Shown: positions 99 to 33,805 of the stretch, in pieces
How positions within the stretch are numbered: the first letter of the stretch is position 1
Layout of the letters: every line of letters starts with the position of its first letter
From: a virus
DNA: 34,174 bases
Strand: one strand, 5' to 3'
Virus record (IMG/VR): IMGVR_UViG_3300030406_002410
Coordinates: 1-34,174 of that record
Position numbers and translations under genes: made by a program
The notes under the pieces: model-generated
Databases searched by the model: none
The model's input: the letters and a program-made list of their open reading frames with translations, nothing else
What the model was told of the DNA's origin: nothing

Positions 99-350
99 AT
101 GTCGCACAATATATATAAAGACAAATTTGAGCATGAAAAAGTAATAGGACAAGACGATATATATTACTTAAGATCTAACAAAAGCATTTATGTTCATGTG
201 TCAACACAAGTCCATTTAGTTGGTGATAATTGTGTTATGAAATTAAATAATGATAAATCACTTACATTTCTTGGCTATGGCAAAACTCTTAATGATGCTT
301 TTAAAAAGGCTATCGAGATTGACAACCAAGTTGTACAGAGGGTAGACTAA
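99..350 (+). CDS. Small protein, fused variant of two ORFs
   Basis: This 83-residue protein is of unknown function and is the first gene of the rightward operon. AGGGGA lies just upstream as ribosome binding site, and the stop overlaps the recombinase start as TAATG. Residues 1 to about 73 match the 78-residue protein at 33569-33805. The last ten residues (IDNQVVQRVD) match the end of the separate protein at 33802-34011 (IDSQVVQRVD). The gene is thus an in-frame fusion made by a 191-bp deletion, or the ancestor of an insertion. No known domain is recognised. The strand-rich middle (YYL, IYVHV, VHLVG) suggests a small beta-sheet fold. Confidence 0.75.
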   Translation: MSHNIYKDKFEHEKVIGQDDIYYLRSNKSIYVHVSTQVHLVGDNCVMKLNNDKSLTFLGYGKTLNDAFKKAIEIDNQVVQRVD

Positions 351-1216
351 TGGTGTACGCAAACAATGGTTATGAGAGTGGTATGCCTATATTTAGGAAG
401 GATCACGGTACTCAGCACAGGGGCAAGTATGCTTGCCTTGTGCGAGTTAGTACCGATAAGCAGGATGTGGAAAACCAAATCTACAATATAAAACAATATC
501 TCAATGGTGGTGACCATGAGGTGAAATGGTTTAGGGAAGAGGGTGTGTCTGGTGCATTACCTTTTTCTAAGCGACCGGTGTTAAAAGAGGCTTTAGACTA
601 CTGTAGAAAAGAGAAAGCTACATTGGTTGTTTATAGCGTGTCTAGATTTTCTAGAAAGATGTGGGAAACTACACGGTTTTTTGAGGAAGAGGTCCACAAG
701 AAAAGATTTAAATTTATTGTAGTAGACAATCCAATGCTGGACCACAAGACAATCGGTTTTCATGCTCAGATGAACTATATCGAGCGTGAGAATATAAGGG
801 AGCGAACTACTGCATCCTTTAACCGTATCAAAGCTGAGATAGCAGAGAAGGGCTACTACAAATCGAAATCCGGGAATATTATTAAGAAACTCGGTGTACA
901 TGACAAGCTGCAAGAGGCTGGTCAGAAGGGTGCTGATACCGTCAAGAAAAATGCTGATGACTTTGCTAGGGATAACTTGCCTTTAGTAAGATCATTGCTT
1001 GATGAAGGTAACAGCTACCGGGATGTTGCTCGTATTCTTACTAAGAGGGGCATTCCATCATTCAAAGGGGGCGAATGGTATGCCTCAACAGTATCTAACT
1101 TACTTAAACGATCTGGTTATAGTGCAAGAGTTCAACATAAAAAAGTAGAGTTAGATGTAACAAATAACGCATTTAATAAATATTTAGAAAAGGATAAGGA
1201 GAGGGGAAATGAATAA
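350..1216 (+). CDS. Serine recombinase (resolvase/integrase family)
   Basis: This 288-residue site-specific recombinase has a resolvase N-terminal domain at about 26-150. The motif LVRVSTDKQ carries the likely catalytic serine at 34. SRFSR (98-102) and ERENIRERT (145-153) fit the family's catalytic core and long E helix. A C-terminal helix-turn-helix region (about 207-256, including SYRDVARILTKRGIPS) is the recombinase DNA-binding part. The protein is longer than simple resolvases (about 185) and much shorter than large serine integrases (450 or more). It could integrate the phage, resolve dimers or invert DNA. GAGGG precedes the start, which overlaps the upstream stop. A second, truncated copy begins at 34011. 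Confidence 0.93.
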   Translation: MVYANNGYESGMPIFRKDHGTQHRGKYACLVRVSTDKQDVENQIYNIKQYLNGGDHEVKWFREEGVSGALPFSKRPVLKEALDYCRKEKATLVVYSVSRFSRKMWETTRFFEEEVHKKRFKFIVVDNPMLDHKTIGFHAQMNYIERENIRERTTASFNRIKAEIAEKGYYKSKSGNIIKKLGVHDKLQEAGQKGADTVKKNADDFARDNLPLVRSLLDEGNSYRDVARILTKRGIPSFKGGEWYASTVSNLLKRSGYSARVQHKKVELDVTNNAFNKYLEKDKERGNE

Positions 1217-2345: not shown

Positions 2346-2603
2346 ATGAATAGTTATAAATACTTAGATGTACTAATCGTAAACGTATGTCGCATAATAT
2401 ATAATATTAATAATTTTCCTAGTCACTCTGATTACATTATCAGACAGGAGAGGAAAGACAACCTAATTAACTTAGTTAAACAGGCTTGTCTGTACATCCT
2501 ATATGCCTTTGCATTCGGTATGTCATTGTTTTCAGCTTATATTCTTTTAATGCTGGGCTGCGTCTTGAACGATAGCTGTTACTACTATTATGGTGGTGTG
2601 TAA
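2346..2603 (+). CDS. Small membrane protein, early operon
   Basis: This 85-residue protein has one clear membrane segment (about 51-74, including LYILYAFAFGMSLFSAYILL) followed by a tyrosine-rich tail (CYYYYGG). The start at 2346 follows AAGGAG at ideal spacing. An in-frame ATG at 2271 would add 25 residues and also has an AGGA upstream, but is less convincing. Its position directly before the recombination genes is unusual for a membrane protein. It could be an early inner-membrane factor, for example in exclusion. No function can be assigned. Confidence 0.65.
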   Translation: MNSYKYLDVLIVNVCRIIYNINNFPSHSDYIIRQERKDNLINLVKQACLYILYAFAFGMSLFSAYILLMLGCVLNDSCYYYYGGV

Positions 2604-2604
2604 T

Positions 2605-3525
2605 ATGCCTAAGTTTACTATTACCGGGAAGGAATTAGGTGCAAGTGAATGTGGAGCGATTGTATTAGGCAAAACTGCATTTACCACCAGAGATAAAATA
2701 TTACAAAATACAAAGGATGCTATTAAAGGCATTGAGGTCAACAAAGGTAACTTTAATTCAGCTAGAGCAGAGTATGGCAATCGATATGAAGAAGTTACAG
2801 GCACATGGGCTAGTGATATATTAGGAACTACAATTAAGTTTCCAGATCATGCTCATCGTTATGAACATCTTAGAATGGGTGCTAGTCTTGATGCCATTAT
2901 ATCTACTGATACTTATGTTACTGTGACTTGTCCTATTACAGGCAAGCTACATACCTTTGAAGGTCCAGAAGGTATTATGGAAATAAAGACCGATAATAAC
3001 CACAAAGGAGTTCCTAAAGAGGAATGGATAATACAAGTACATCATCAAATGATTTGCTCTGGGTTGGAATGGGGAGTTATTGCTGTTGCTACGCAAAAGA
3101 TGGGTGAGCCAATAATATACCCTGTGCCTAGAGATCCAGTACTTATTGATAAAATAAGAGTTAAGGTAGCAGAGTTCTGGGATTTAGTTGACAACGATGG
3201 CAGCTATCCACCACTAGCACCACCCTCAAAAGAGAGTGTGGACTTAACTTTACTGCTAAAGAAAACCAATACTGACATGGAAATGTTATGTGCTGACTAT
3301 CTAAGGCAATCGGCAGAGGCTAGAGAAAGTAAAAAGTTAGCTGATGAAATCCGGGATAACATTGAGATAGCTATGCAATCTATGGATATAGAATTAGGTC
3401 ATGTAGGCAACTACCAGATCAAATGCGAAACAGTAAAAAAATTTAAACGCAAGAGTGTTCCGACTACTGAGGAATATGAAAGCGTATCATTTTCAGTAAA
3501 ACAAACAGAGGTGTATGATGAGTAA
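2605..3525 (+). CDS. YqaJ-family viral recombinase / exonuclease
   Basis: This 306-residue protein is a PD-(D/E)xK nuclease of the YqaJ/lambda-exonuclease type. MGASLDAII places a catalytic aspartate at about 96, and IMEIKT supplies the E-x-K pair (about 126 and 128). KTAFTTRDK and GNRYEE near the N-terminus fit the family. In this family the enzyme resects double-stranded ends and works with an annealing protein, and the next gene is RecT, so this is a Red-like pair. I chose the ATG at 2605 because GGTGGTG precedes it and it follows the previous stop directly. The alternative at 2590 lies inside that gene. The end overlaps recT by 8 bases. Confidence 0.88.
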   Translation: MPKFTITGKELGASECGAIVLGKTAFTTRDKILQNTKDAIKGIEVNKGNFNSARAEYGNRYEEVTGTWASDILGTTIKFPDHAHRYEHLRMGASLDAIISTDTYVTVTCPITGKLHTFEGPEGIMEIKTDNNHKGVPKEEWIIQVHHQMICSGLEWGVIAVATQKMGEPIIYPVPRDPVLIDKIRVKVAEFWDLVDNDGSYPPLAPPSKESVDLTLLLKKTNTDMEMLCADYLRQSAEARESKKLADEIRDNIEIAMQSMDIELGHVGNYQIKCETVKKFKRKSVPTTEEYESVSFSVKQTEVYDE

Positions 3526-4426
3526 AGTGAGTATATTAGAGCCTACTAACTTAGGCGAGGCAATGGAATTTGCCAAACAAATATCTAGTTCAAGCATGGT
3601 TCCAAAACAATATCAAGGTAACCCGACTAATACATTGATAGCTATGCAATGGGGATATGAGATTGGTCTAGCACCAATGCAAGCCCTACAGAATATAGCT
3701 GTCATAAATGGCAAGCCTTCTATTTACGGTGATGCATTGCTAGCACTTGTAAGAAAAGATCCTCGGTGCATGGGCATAGAAGAAAAGATAGAAGGTGAAA
3801 ACGAAAACATGAGGGCTATCTGTATATTAAAAAGAAAGCATATTGATGGCAGCATTGAAATGATTGACCGTGAGTTCTCTGTCTTGATGGCAAAGCGAGC
3901 TGGCTTATGGGGCAAACAAGGTCCTTGGACACAGTACCCGGAGAGAATGTTGCAGATGAGAGCCAGAGGTAACTGCCTTCGTGATGCCTTCCCGGATGTT
4001 ATTAAGGGAATAATTACAAAAGAAGAGGCTGACGATTATCCTGTCGAAAAACAAAGCGATATGAAGACCGTACAAGGGGCAGAACATACATCTAGCACTA
4101 TGATTGATAGTCAAGAAGTAAAACATATCTCTCAGAGCCTTCCTATCGAGAATAAATACATATTGCAGTTAACCAACGGTACAAAAAAGGAATTTGATAG
4201 CGTTGATACATGGGCTGTGGAATATGACAAGGTTCTTAGGACTATTTTTGAGTATGATCAAATGGACCACGCTGACAGGCGAACTAAAATGAAGGAGTTA
4301 GAAAATCTTAATGAAGAATTTATAGATGATATTCTACCAGACTACCTTCGCCAGACAATTAAAGAGCAGCGTATTAAATTTAATAAGGTTCTGAGTGTTG
4401 AGGGAAGGGAGCAAGAAAATGAGTAA
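3518..4426 (+). CDS. recT: RecT-type single-strand annealing protein
   Basis: This 302-residue protein matches the RecT family core: AMQWGYEIGLAPMQALQNIA then GKPSIYGDALLALV (about 43-78), and the later segment GPWTQYPERMLQMRARGNCL (about 144-163). It anneals complementary single strands produced by the upstream exonuclease, giving homologous recombination and possibly concatemer formation. GAGG is 6 bases before the second of two tandem ATGs, so 3518 is preferred to 3515. The C-terminal 120 residues are less conserved and charged. The end overlaps the next gene by 8 bases. Confidence 0.92.
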   Translation: MSKVSILEPTNLGEAMEFAKQISSSSMVPKQYQGNPTNTLIAMQWGYEIGLAPMQALQNIAVINGKPSIYGDALLALVRKDPRCMGIEEKIEGENENMRAICILKRKHIDGSIEMIDREFSVLMAKRAGLWGKQGPWTQYPERMLQMRARGNCLRDAFPDVIKGIITKEEADDYPVEKQSDMKTVQGAEHTSSTMIDSQEVKHISQSLPIENKYILQLTNGTKKEFDSVDTWAVEYDKVLRTIFEYDQMDHADRRTKMKELENLNEEFIDDILPDYLRQTIKEQRIKFNKVLSVEGREQENE

Positions 4427-4622
4427 AATTATAGGTAAGCCAATAACTGCTGAAGAAGTTGCAAAACAAATAGGATGCACTCCTCAACATATTTACAATC
4501 AAGTAAAGTTAAGGACAATTCCACATTATAAAATTGGTAACGCTATACGTTTTCCGTATGACGTAGTTCAAACACATATTTATAAACCAGCTATAAAGGA
4601 TCAAGATGATGCAACAGGATAA
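4419..4622 (+). CDS. Excisionase-like helix-turn-helix protein
   Basis: This 67-residue protein matches the HTH_17/excisionase pattern: ITAEEVAKQIGCTPQHIYNQ forms the helices and RTIPHYKIGNAIRFPYDVV the wing with its typical 'IP..K.G...RF' ending. GGGAGC is upstream of the chosen ATG. Proteins of this type act as recombination directionality factors or small repressors. With a serine recombinase in the same operon, a role in excision control is reasonable but unproven, since serine integrases use diverse directionality factors. Confidence 0.75.
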   Translation: MSKIIGKPITAEEVAKQIGCTPQHIYNQVKLRTIPHYKIGNAIRFPYDVVQTHIYKPAIKDQDDATG

Positions 4623-31042: not shown

Positions 31043-31211
31043 TGAAAAACTCCTTAATGAAATTGTGGAAAATATTTTTGTGAGATCCCCCACTATATAT
31101 ACGCATGGGGGGAGGGCATAAGGTGCGTTCTGCGATACAGAGATTTTTTACACCGTATTCTGCGTGTTCCGATGCCTCTATGAACATCTGGACTTTGTAC
31201 ACTCTAGTCAT
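31035..31211 (-). CDS. 58-residue ORF coupled to the replication gene
   Basis: The ATG overlaps the replication-gene stop as ATGA and the ORF ends eight bases inside the next gene. The first half (MTRVYKVQMFIEASEHAEYG) looks like normal protein. The second half reads through a G/C-run hairpin (31087-31111) and gives CPPPMRIYSGGS, which is less convincing. It may be a true small protein or a chance frame over a regulatory element. Confidence 0.4.
   Translation of the reverse strand: MTRVYKVQMFIEASEHAEYGVKNLCIAERTLCPPPMRIYSGGSHKNIFHNFIKEFFNG
31087..31111. promoter_or_regulatory. CCCCCA/TGGGGG hairpin with TATATATA loop
   Basis: CCCCCA (31087-31092) pairs with TGGGGG (31106-31111) around CTATATATACGCA. 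It separates the replication genes from the packaging genes. No U-run follows on the minus strand. The arms are the same sequences that form the inverted repeat before the holin. A one-mismatch DnaA box (TTTTCCACA, minus strand, 31064-31072) lies close by. It could be an attenuator, a promoter element or a protein-binding cruciform. Confidence 0.4.
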
Positions 31212-32461
31212 AATGATGCACCATTTTCTAGAAAGTATTGTAATGTTTGAGGTGGCTGCTTGTTGTCCTGTAAGGATTGGCTAACTACTTTACTTGCTAG
31301 GTCCTTAAACTGCTCAGTAGTGTATCCTTGTTGTAATAGTTTGTCAGCTACTACCTTATCATTCTCACTTGCCTTCCATTCAGTTCCATAATTCTGCTTT
31401 ACCACATTCATGTAACTGTTCAATATTCCATTAATTAGAATTTCCTTATTATATATATTATTATATATATTGTTATTGTTAAGTGTTACCTTCACCGTTA
31501 CATCTGAGGGTGTAGGTGTAACCTTCATGGTAACATCTTGCTCTTGGGTGTTACGCTCATCGTTACATCTAGTATCTAAGGTGTTACCGTCATCGTTACA
31601 CCCTATGTTACGTTCATCGTTACACCCTTTATAGTATTTCTTGTAGTATTCTAATGGTATACTGTGGTCCTTTTCATTCGGTGGTCTTCCCCATGAAGAT
31701 GCCCAGACACTACCCGGTTTCCAGTTCTGTAGCCGTGCCTTCCATTGTGCCTCATCATTGGTGATAACTTCTTTCTTTACTGGCTGTTTAGGCTTGTCTT
31801 GTGGCTTGTTAAAGTATCCCAGCTTGTAAGGTGATAGCATCTTATTATCGAGTGCTGTCCATGTTTCCTCTGTCTGTATGCCTGTCATCCATAATGCTAC
31901 GTCATTATATATACGGTCAAACGAGTAGTCCGGGTTATCCTTGGCGTACTTCTTAGTGATAACGTAGGCTAACTTCTCCTGTTTCTCTGTCAGCTTACGC
32001 TCGTAATGTTTAGGCTTGTACACCTTCTGCAATGTTTCCTGTACCTTGTTATCGTCTATCTCGGTGGTATCTGCCATCTGTTTCTCGTAGCTAATTGATG
32101 GGTCCAGAATAAGTCTATACACGCAGCCTTGTTGTCCTAATGGTCTACGGTTGTCTGCCTTGCGTATCTTCTCTATGTATCCCCATTTAACCAGTTCATT
32201 CATATAATCTGTTACATGGTTCCTTGATGTACCGACTATCTTGCCGATGGTTGAATGATTAATAAAAAATGTATTACCTCGCCTCTCATTCTGGTGACCA
32301 CAACAGATAGCTAGTATTCTAAATGCCTGTTTATTCTTATTAAACCTAACGTCACCGTAGGCTCTAGCCGGCATAATTATAACTTGTCCGGGGCATTGGT
32401 ATTCTCCATAGCCTTTAGGTGGATCTCTGAGTGGGTCTGGTGTCAGCTTACTTATCTTCAT
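31208..32461 (-). CDS. Replication initiator containing its own origin
   Basis: This 417-residue protein has a winged helix-turn-helix at about 50-115 (NTFFINHSTIGKIVGTSRNH, then MNELVKWGYIEKIRKADNRR and a final strand CVYRLILDP), in the style of phage replication initiators such as lambda O. A low-complexity stretch at about 279-340 (CNDERN repeats, then VTMKVT/VTVKVT and Asn-rich) is encoded by DNA iterons. The C-terminal region (about 355-417) may contact host helicase-loading proteins by analogy with lambda O. I choose the ATG at 32461 (MKISKL) over a farther upstream start, because that extension runs through the zinc-ribbon gene. It overlaps that gene by 14 bases. Confidence 0.75.
   Translation of the reverse strand: MKISKLTPDPLRDPPKGYGEYQCPGQVIIMPARAYGDVRFNKNKQAFRILAICCGHQNERRGNTFFINHSTIGKIVGTSRNHVTDYMNELVKWGYIEKIRKADNRRPLGQQGCVYRLILDPSISYEKQMADTTEIDDNKVQETLQKVYKPKHYERKLTEKQEKLAYVITKKYAKDNPDYSFDRIYNDVALWMTGIQTEETWTALDNKMLSPYKLGYFNKPQDKPKQPVKKEVITNDEAQWKARLQNWKPGSVWASSWGRPPNEKDHSIPLEYYKKYYKGCNDERNIGCNDDGNTLDTRCNDERNTQEQDVTMKVTPTPSDVTVKVTLNNNNIYNNIYNKEILINGILNSYMNVVKQNYGTEWKASENDKVVADKLLQQGYTTEQFKDLASKVVSQSLQDNKQPPQTLQYFLENGASL
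31441..31625. other. Putative replication origin: five iterons plus AT-rich tract
   Basis: Five 21-bp iterons lie at 31483-31503, 31516-31536, 31548-31568, 31581-31601 and 31605-31625. The consensus is GTGTTAC, seven bases centred on TCA, GTTACAY, so each is itself a near-palindrome. Start-to-start spacings are 33, 32, 33 and 24. Directly beside them, 31441-31482 is almost pure A/T (TTATTATATATATTATTATA and onward), a good unwinding element. Location inside the initiator gene, iteron dyads and flanking AT tract all match the lambda ori layout. Function is inferred. Confidence 0.75.
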
Positions 32462-32609
32462 TCTTCCTTGTTTCCCTAATTGTTTCAGTAACGTAAACAC
32501 CACAAGTGTAGCATTTACGCTCTGTAAAATTCTTATCTGTACGCAATGTACTAAGTGCTGTCTTACAGCGTGGGCAAAAATCATCCTTAATATGCTTGTT
32601 ATTTGTCAT
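32448..32609 (-). CDS. Zinc-ribbon micro-protein
   Basis: This 53-residue protein has two CxxC knuckles, CPRC (12-15) and CYTC (33-36), the metal-binding pattern of a zinc ribbon, with a charged tail. I start at the ATG at 32609, 11 bases inside the upstream gene (ATGACAAATAA), as an earlier ATG has no better ribosome site. Zinc ribbons of this size occur in phage replication and transcription accessories. It overlaps the initiator gene by 14 bases. Confidence 0.7.
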   Translation of the reverse strand: MTNNKHIKDDFCPRCKTALSTLRTDKNFTERKCYTCGVYVTETIRETRKNEDK

Positions 32610-32853
32610 TTGTCTTCCTTGTATACGGTACATATGCTTGATGCTTACTAAAGAAGTCTGCCTTAAAGTTCATCTGCTTTAGTTGTTTATCCTGTGCCTC
32701 TTTATCACCTCTATGAAATAAGTTGAGGTTGTCATTTTTTGCCATCATTTCCTCGAATGTAGCGATAGATGATGCTTGGTATACATGAGTTTGTACTGGG
32801 TAATATCGCCCATACTTATCATATTCTTCTGCCCTAGGATCATCTTCAAACAT
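32599..32853 (-). CDS. Hypothetical early protein
   Basis: This 84-residue protein is not recognised. It is acidic at the start (MFEDDPRAEEYDKYGRYYPV) and basic at the end (FFSKHQAYVPYTRKTNDK). It is encoded between the DnaA-like and zinc-ribbon genes with overlaps of 1 and 11 bases, so it belongs to the replication operon. Tyrosine content is high in the first 25 residues. Confidence 0.6.
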   Translation of the reverse strand: MFEDDPRAEEYDKYGRYYPVQTHVYQASSIATFEEMMAKNDNLNLFHRGDKEAQDKQLKQMNFKADFFSKHQAYVPYTRKTNDK

Positions 32854-33290
32854 TACGCTACGTCCAGTTCTTTTATAATATCATCGTATATTTTACGCAT
32901 CTTACGGCTTTTTTTAATTAACAGTTTGCCTCGCTTGGCTCCCTGTACAATAGTTGTATGATCCCGGTTAAGAGCATTGCCTATCTCTGTGAATGGCTGC
33001 CAAGTCTTCTCCCGGCATATTAAATACAACAAAGTCCTAAATGGCTGGGTGAGGTGGCTACGTCTTTTGTTTAATAACTCATTTGTTGGGCAGCCTGTCA
33101 CTCTTGAGATGGCAAGGACCACTTCCCGGATTGATACTGCTTGGGTGAGATCTCTAAGATCTTCGTTCCTCGATATGTAGCCTCGACTAGCTTTTTCTTT
33201 AGTCGGTAAACTGGTGTCTTGAACCCTTTCACATCCTCGACTATCCTCTTTTTGCCTGTAAAGTATCGGAAATCTGCCATGTATTTGCAT
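32853..33290 (-). CDS. Stand-alone DnaA domain IV protein
   Basis: Residues 52-143 of this 145-residue protein match the DNA-binding domain IV of DnaA: VSIREVVLAISRVTGCPTNE, LLNKRRSHLTQPFRTLLYLI (basic loop with KRRS), then TEIGNALNRDHTTIVQGAKR, with RDHTT (109-113) the family signature. There is no AAA+ domain, so it cannot form the ATP-dependent filament. It may bind DnaA boxes at a phage origin or compete with host DnaA. Start at 33290 has GGAG seven bases upstream, and no other ATG, GTG or TTG occurs before residue 57. This makes a 193-base out-of-frame overlap with the nuclease gene. Residues 1-50 look unlike any domain. Confidence 0.75.
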   Translation of the reverse strand: MQIHGRFPILYRQKEDSRGCERVQDTSLPTKEKASRGYISRNEDLRDLTQAVSIREVVLAISRVTGCPTNELLNKRRSHLTQPFRTLLYLICREKTWQPFTEIGNALNRDHTTIVQGAKRGKLLIKKSRKMRKIYDDIIKELDVA

Positions 33291-33568: not shown

Positions 33569-33805
33569 ATGTCGCACAATATATATAAAGATAAATTTGA
33601 GCATGAAAAAGTAATAGGACAAGACGATATATATTACTTAAAATCTAACAAAAGCATTTATGTTCATGTGTCAACACAAGTCCATTTAGTTGGTGAAAAT
33701 TGTGTTATGAAATTAAATAATGATAAATCACTTACATTTCTTGGCTATGGCAAAACTCTTAATGAGGCTTTTAAGAAAGCTATACACATAGGAGAAAGTA
33801 AATGA
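33569..33805 (+). CDS. Small early protein, unfused version
   Basis: This 78-residue protein is the homologue of the N-terminal part of the protein at 99-350 and shares 70 of its first 73 residues, with changes R/K, D/E and D/E. It ends separately in KKAIHIGESK, and its stop overlaps the next ORF as ATGA. The intact arrangement suggests that two genes are the normal state and the fused gene a deletion product, though the reverse cannot be excluded. Function unknown. Confidence 0.75.
   Translation: MSHNIYKDKFEHEKVIGQDDIYYLKSNKSIYVHVSTQVHLVGENCVMKLNNDKSLTFLGYGKTLNEAFKKAIHIGESK

Follow-up and report, generated by a model that had tools for sequence, protein, structure and literature searches.

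Does the gene for a phage replication initiator also contain the origin at which replication starts? The question is raised by IMGVR_UViG_3300030406_002410, an uncultured virus contig of 34,174 bp (the window, meaning the whole stretch analyzed here), in which a first-pass annotation had described five 21 bp near-palindromic iterons beside an A/T tract within a replication gene, and had likened the arrangement to the O gene and origin (O/ori) of phage lambda. This gene (31208–32461, minus strand) very probably carries a lambda-type theta origin inside its own coding sequence, where the encoded initiator would bind the iterons, melt the A/T tract and recruit the host helicase. The proposed likeness to lambda is supported by the repeats of related genes and by covariation between these repeats and the recognition helix of the initiator.

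The motif TGTWAC-N7-GTWACA (W, A or T) has five exact copies in the window (31484–31502, 31517–31535, 31549–31567, 31582–31600 and 31606–31624) and none elsewhere in it, whereas only 0.01 copies are expected by chance (mean of 100 dinucleotide shuffles), so the five iterons of the first-pass annotation are confirmed. The full 21-mer form is RTGTWAC-N7-GTWACAY. Shuffling of synonymous codons within the gene left 0.42 copies on average, and five were never reached in 3000 trials. The elements of the region are as follows:

31430–31477, A/T tract (91% A/T over 45 bp, the highest in the window), a putative DNA-unwinding element
31483–31503, iteron 1, beside the A/T tract, GTGTTAC-N7-GTTACAT, read as the peptide VTVKVT
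31516–31536, iteron 2, GTGTAAC-N7-GTAACAT, peptide VTMKVT
31548–31568, iteron 3, GTGTTAC-N7-GTTACAT, peptide CNDERN, frame changed after a 32 bp step
31581–31601, iteron 4, GTGTTAC-N7-GTTACAC, peptide CNDDGN
31605–31625, iteron 5, distal, at a spacing of 24 bp, ATGTTAC-N7-GTTACAC, peptide CNDERN

The A/T tract adjoins the iterons on the side coding for the C-terminal part of the protein. Iteron spacings are 33, 32, 33 and 24 bp, and it is because one of them is 32 bp that the frame changes, with the three distal copies read as CNDERN, CNDDGN and CNDERN and the two on the A/T side as VTMKVT and VTVKVT, just as the first-pass annotation had it. Iteron 2 carries GTAAC where the other copies have GTTAC, which amounts to an inversion at the single asymmetric position. 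Iteron 5 is missing from the two closest relatives of the window, which has one iteron more than they do.

Conservation of the iterons extends beyond the peptides they encode, as had also been proposed. At half-site positions other than W, none of 40 is changed in two near full-length relatives (L016 and L003), against differences from the window of 10% (L016) and 17% (L003) elsewhere in the gene, and of 20% and 30%, respectively, at its third codon positions. Half-site changes are limited to W (4 of 8 in L016 and 3 of 8 in L003), where the arms vary freely and the amino acid is altered. This pattern of substitution points to selection on the DNA, not on the peptide, at the iterons.

Relatives were collected from IMG/VR, starting at terminase neighbours, and gave 47 homologous genes (48 with the window). 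Palindromic dyads, counted with up to one mismatch allowed, are present at the corresponding place in all 48 (at least three in 40 genes and two in 8), although their arms differ by clade. About ten repeat sequence types occur across the family, and copies within one gene share the same type. The A/T tract is largely retained in all close relatives, though their iterons differ. The types and their carriers are listed below; the motifs of the weakest types were picked after viewing the sequence, and those are less certain.

TGTWAC-N7, window clade (window, L016 and L003)
ATKACC-N5 (type B), L017 and L018
ACAAG-N6, the majority of relatives
ACAAC-N6, L078, L067 and L081
ATAAC-N6, L043, L047 and L049
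ATAAG-N6 (ATAAG-like), L066
GTTAAG-N6, L019
ACAACC-N6, L054
two weaker repeat types, L085 and L087 relatives

Type-B iterons switch frames more often than those of the window: the copies in L018 (same contig as L011) lie in frames 1,1,1,0,1,0 at spacings of 24, 24, 32, 31 and 23 bp, and those in L017 (same contig as L004) in frames 1,1,0,1,0 at spacings of 24, 32, 31 and 23 bp.

Changes of repeat type are accompanied by changes in one part of the protein. Between the window and L017, where the type has switched, identity is 87% in the linker domain and 80% in the C-terminal part, but 42% in the helix-turn-helix (HTH) and 19% in the part encoded by the iterons. L078 and L043 share 100% of the N-arm and 92% of the C-terminal part, compared with 67% of the HTH and 38% of the iteron-coded part. 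So that the segment need not be chosen by hand, the whole protein was then scanned blind in 34 14-residue blocks, each correlated with iteron type after the distance across all other residues had been taken into account. Block 78–91, in the recognition helix, ranked first of the 34 (partial r 0.57), followed by the overlapping block 71–84 (0.51), while the next independent block reached 0.27. For the full helix (77–90) the value was 0.59 and none of 2000 permutations was as high, a count that overstates independence, since related sequences are not independent, and is not a probability; this tempers the case, and the block rank is the safer measure. Such joint change of helix and DNA sites strongly suggests that the encoded winged-helix protein binds the iterons, and because the recognition helix tracks repeat type best, the repeats are most likely the binding sites of this protein.

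A simple correspondence can be seen in helices of the form S/T-Q-x-A-V/I-x-x-H, in which Q at position 3 occurs with C in the half-site and P or S with T, K at position 7 occurs with an inner C and Q, E, H or L with G, and these pairings appear in all four combinations. The code was derived post hoc; additional loci brought no contradiction, which is a weak test as they sampled only the known helices QQ..SQ, QS..SQ and QQ..HK. One copy among the new QS-group loci has ATTAG instead of ATAAG. The roughly ten matched pairs of initiator and iteron represent a natural experiment on change of DNA target, with the rest of a winged-helix initiator held nearly constant.

The protein itself has an N-terminal winged helix, a middle domain, a disordered linker and a helical C-terminal domain. 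Although the open reading frame (ORF) tool extends the frame to an ATG at 32584 (a 458-aa ORF), the start is most likely at 32461 (MKISK..., residue M42 of the 458-aa ORF), because homologues align from M42 and AAGGAAG lies just upstream of that ATG. The parts of the gene, with domains taken from an AlphaFold2 (AF2) model and its predicted local distance difference test (pLDDT) scores, are:

31208–32461, minus strand, initiator gene, 417 aa (from the ORF, homologue alignment, PHROG matches of relatives and the fold model)
32108–32368, minus strand, winged-helix domain, residues 32–118 (AF2 model; HTH/MarR-like Pfam matches)
32183–32224, minus strand, recognition helix, residues 80–93, the segment tracking iteron type (covariation analysis)
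31451–31630, minus strand, predicted disordered residues 278–337 (pLDDT <50), covering the same DNA as the iterons and the greater part of the A/T tract
31220–31456, minus strand, helical C-terminal domain, residues 336–414 (pLDDT about 88 over most of its length; conserved in relatives)

The pLDDT values are mostly 80–93 for residues 31–100 and lower in the wing. Since pLDDT is below 50 where the coding sequence overlaps the iterons and the bulk of the A/T tract, the origin would appear to sit where the initiator is least constrained; in the model, the iteron-coded peptide is a disordered linker that would tolerate almost any sequence, so that origin DNA could fit inside the gene. Proteins of the relatives match phrog_391 ('replication initiation O-like', best E-value 1.6e-14) and other replication-initiation families, and the window protein has a weak match to phrog_8102 ('replication initiation protein', 0.002). 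In the favored model, a winged-helix initiator, probably dimeric, would use its recognition helix to bind the five palindromic iterons, the complex so formed would open the adjoining A/T tract, and the C-terminal helical domain, a candidate for the task, would then recruit the host replicative helicase.

O dimers bind the lambda iterons, which are inverted repeats, and the A/T region beside them opens (PMC5043065; PMC7466680). Four iterons of 18 bp are annotated in lambda O (NC_001416, 39034–39118), spaced 20, 24 and 23 bp apart, and A/T content over 40 bp of O peaks just after iteron 4. They occupy all three frames, so iterons read in several frames, considered at first as a possible novelty of the window, cannot be regarded as one. 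Lambdoid phages in general have their origin in the middle of O, with a variable number of iterons (PMC7466680), and the effect of an ori-lambda plasmid is directed to rep-lambda and not to rep-P22 phages (PMC3349717). The window resembles lambda O/ori in having the putative origin in mid-gene, inverted-repeat iterons in several frames and an adjoining A/T stretch, and also in that the predicted DNA-binding domain is encoded upstream of the iterons, with a separate C-terminal part. It differs in iteron sequence, which is unrelated to that of lambda, in the number and spacing of copies (five at 24–33 bp, as opposed to 20–24 bp in lambda) and in the lack of a recognised adjacent P gene, although the latter is taken here as a feature of lambda itself rather than of the origin type. 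The O/ori of Stx phages such as P27 and 933W is also of lambda type and varies in iteron number, with extra iterons there adding residues to O (PMC7466680), but their iterons are near-identical to those of lambda, while the sequence in the window is unrelated and its family switches type. Iteron plasmids of the P1, RK2 and R6K type likewise combine iterons with an A/T-rich region (PMC5043065), and the presence of DnaA boxes in relatives of the window extends the parallel; unlike these origins, which pair direct-repeat iterons with DnaA boxes, the window has palindromic iterons and no perfect DnaA box. The window is a probable addition to the known lambda-type origins, and the surrounding family is of more interest than the single case.

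Perfect DnaA boxes (TTATCCACA) are absent from the window, and the nearest site with one mismatch (31064, TGTGGAAAA) was rejected as a candidate, being outside the initiator gene. Among relatives, 28 perfect boxes were found in 35 non-redundant initiator genes (34.7 kb in total), compared to one in 377 kb of flanking DNA, and synonymous shuffles predict 1.2 in the same 35 genes. One or two perfect boxes are carried by 21 of the 35, and by none of the window's clade. The box in these genes has the form TGTGGATAA, is located just N-terminal of the iterons, and is usually read as PVDK/PVDN or AVDK, while the L054 box is in the opposite orientation (read as LSTELST) and the L055 boxes are in two further frames. 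Because boxes occur in both orientations and in several frames, the box DNA itself appears to be under selection in the relatives. Box-bearing initiator genes include those of L054, L055, L050, L045, L031, L083 and L088. No published case of a lambda-type initiator gene containing DnaA boxes was found in the literature, of which coverage was partial. Upstream of the initiator gene of the window is a further gene that may be relevant here:

32853–33290, minus strand, DnaA domain-IV-like protein, 145 aa, with no AAA+ domain

It matches Bac_DnaA_C (7.5e-10) and the C-terminal part of TIGR00362 (1.8e-10), retains the DHTT motif, and has stand-alone counterparts in many relatives, both with and without DnaA boxes and including the window clade. 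The protein is a possible accessory factor. Plasmid origins carry DnaA sites alongside their iterons and can do without the DnaA AAA+ domain (PMC5043065), which makes a helper consisting of domain IV alone conceivable. Taken jointly, palindromic iterons and DnaA boxes in the initiator gene, a role for the domain-IV protein and a code between helix and iterons could define a hybrid origin in a large family of uncultured phages, a combined proposal that we put forward tentatively and consider somewhat doubtful. Under it, the domain-IV protein, having no ATPase, may aid at the boxes or exclude host DnaA, some clades without boxes (such as that of the window) may carry more iterons instead, and the initiator helix and iterons may switch jointly via a simple residue-to-base code. 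The in-gene boxes of the relatives raise the question of whether phages sharing an initiator family move between initiation with and without help from DnaA.

Could the repeats serve another function? They might be operators, through which the winged-helix protein controls transcription of its own or a neighbouring gene while replication starts elsewhere, and in accord with this the DNA-binding domain resembles MarR-type regulators, proteins that bind palindromes of about the size of the iterons. The sites, however, lie deep inside the gene and not at a promoter, adjacent to the tract of highest A/T content in the window, and several iterons plus an A/T tract within an initiator gene is the layout of lambda; the best PHROG matches of relatives are to replication-initiation families, and DnaA boxes are present at this location in relatives, all of which leaves operators an unlikely explanation. 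Less probable still is that a true origin is present at which the DnaA domain-IV-like protein (32853–33290), rather than the initiator, is the main iteron binder. Conservation of this protein in the clade and in numerous relatives favors such a role, yet the iterons are unlike DnaA boxes, their type tracks the recognition helix of the initiator, and the protein is not seen at many iteron-bearing loci (some being cut contigs). A by-product of coding, with the repeats existing at the protein level as a peptide linker, can be dismissed with near certainty: one subset of relatives does read its copies in a single frame, as KPQLV repeats, but the copies of the window are in two frames and give unlike peptides, in many relatives the distal copy falls in a different frame, the segment is predicted to be disordered, and the dyads are lost in synonymous shuffles; the two-frame reading and the shuffles together refute it.

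An origin within the initiator gene, bound by the initiator, remains the favored reading, and several results count against it. Profile comparison with a single lambda O sequence gave no match, and when the full model was searched by fold, the winged-helix hits were weak and none reached E 0.001. The early genes tested include no recognisable lambda P-like loader; behind the initiator come genes for an 84-aa protein of unknown function and for terminase, and no DnaB helicase was found in the phage. Helical phasing adds little, as the first-pass proposal that spacing places the initiator on one face of the helix fits the 32–33 bp steps but overlooked the outermost 24 bp step (2.3 helical turns), and it fails in relatives too, where family spacings of 24, 32, 33, 44, 16 and 41 bp led us to reject it as general evidence. 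Given that neither a P-like loader nor a phage DnaB was recognised, the host replicative helicase is presumably used. The GC-skew signal suggested as a check is in partial agreement, with a cumulative minimum at 32–33 kb that fits an origin there but is confounded with gene orientation. All of the checks suggested in the first-pass annotation that were run gave favorable or neutral outcomes.

Searches of named phages by tblastn, using the window protein and two relatives as queries, returned no homologues, and none was confirmed in bacterial genomes. A probable origin can be located to about 200 bp in this uncultured lineage of phages, for which no isolate with a recognisable homologue was found. 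The large subunit terminase is 66% identical to its counterpart in Methylophilales phage MEP301, the host of which is an OM43 methylotroph, and on this basis the window is likely to derive from a marine, podovirus-like phage. The contig ends (1–513 and 33471–34174) repeat each other at 98–99% identity, the tail copy having gained about 190 bp as an insertion, and the same small gene is found at both ends (99–350 and 33569–33805). The window is probably a near-complete genome, terminally redundant or circular, assembled from variants. A serine recombinase of the DNA invertase/integrase family (350–1216, plus strand) and a weak excisionase-like match (4395–4622, plus strand) suggest that the phage is possibly temperate. 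A RecE-like exonuclease and a RecT-like annealing protein lie side by side (2590–4426, plus strand), encoded on the other strand from the initiator gene and forming a phage recombination pair.
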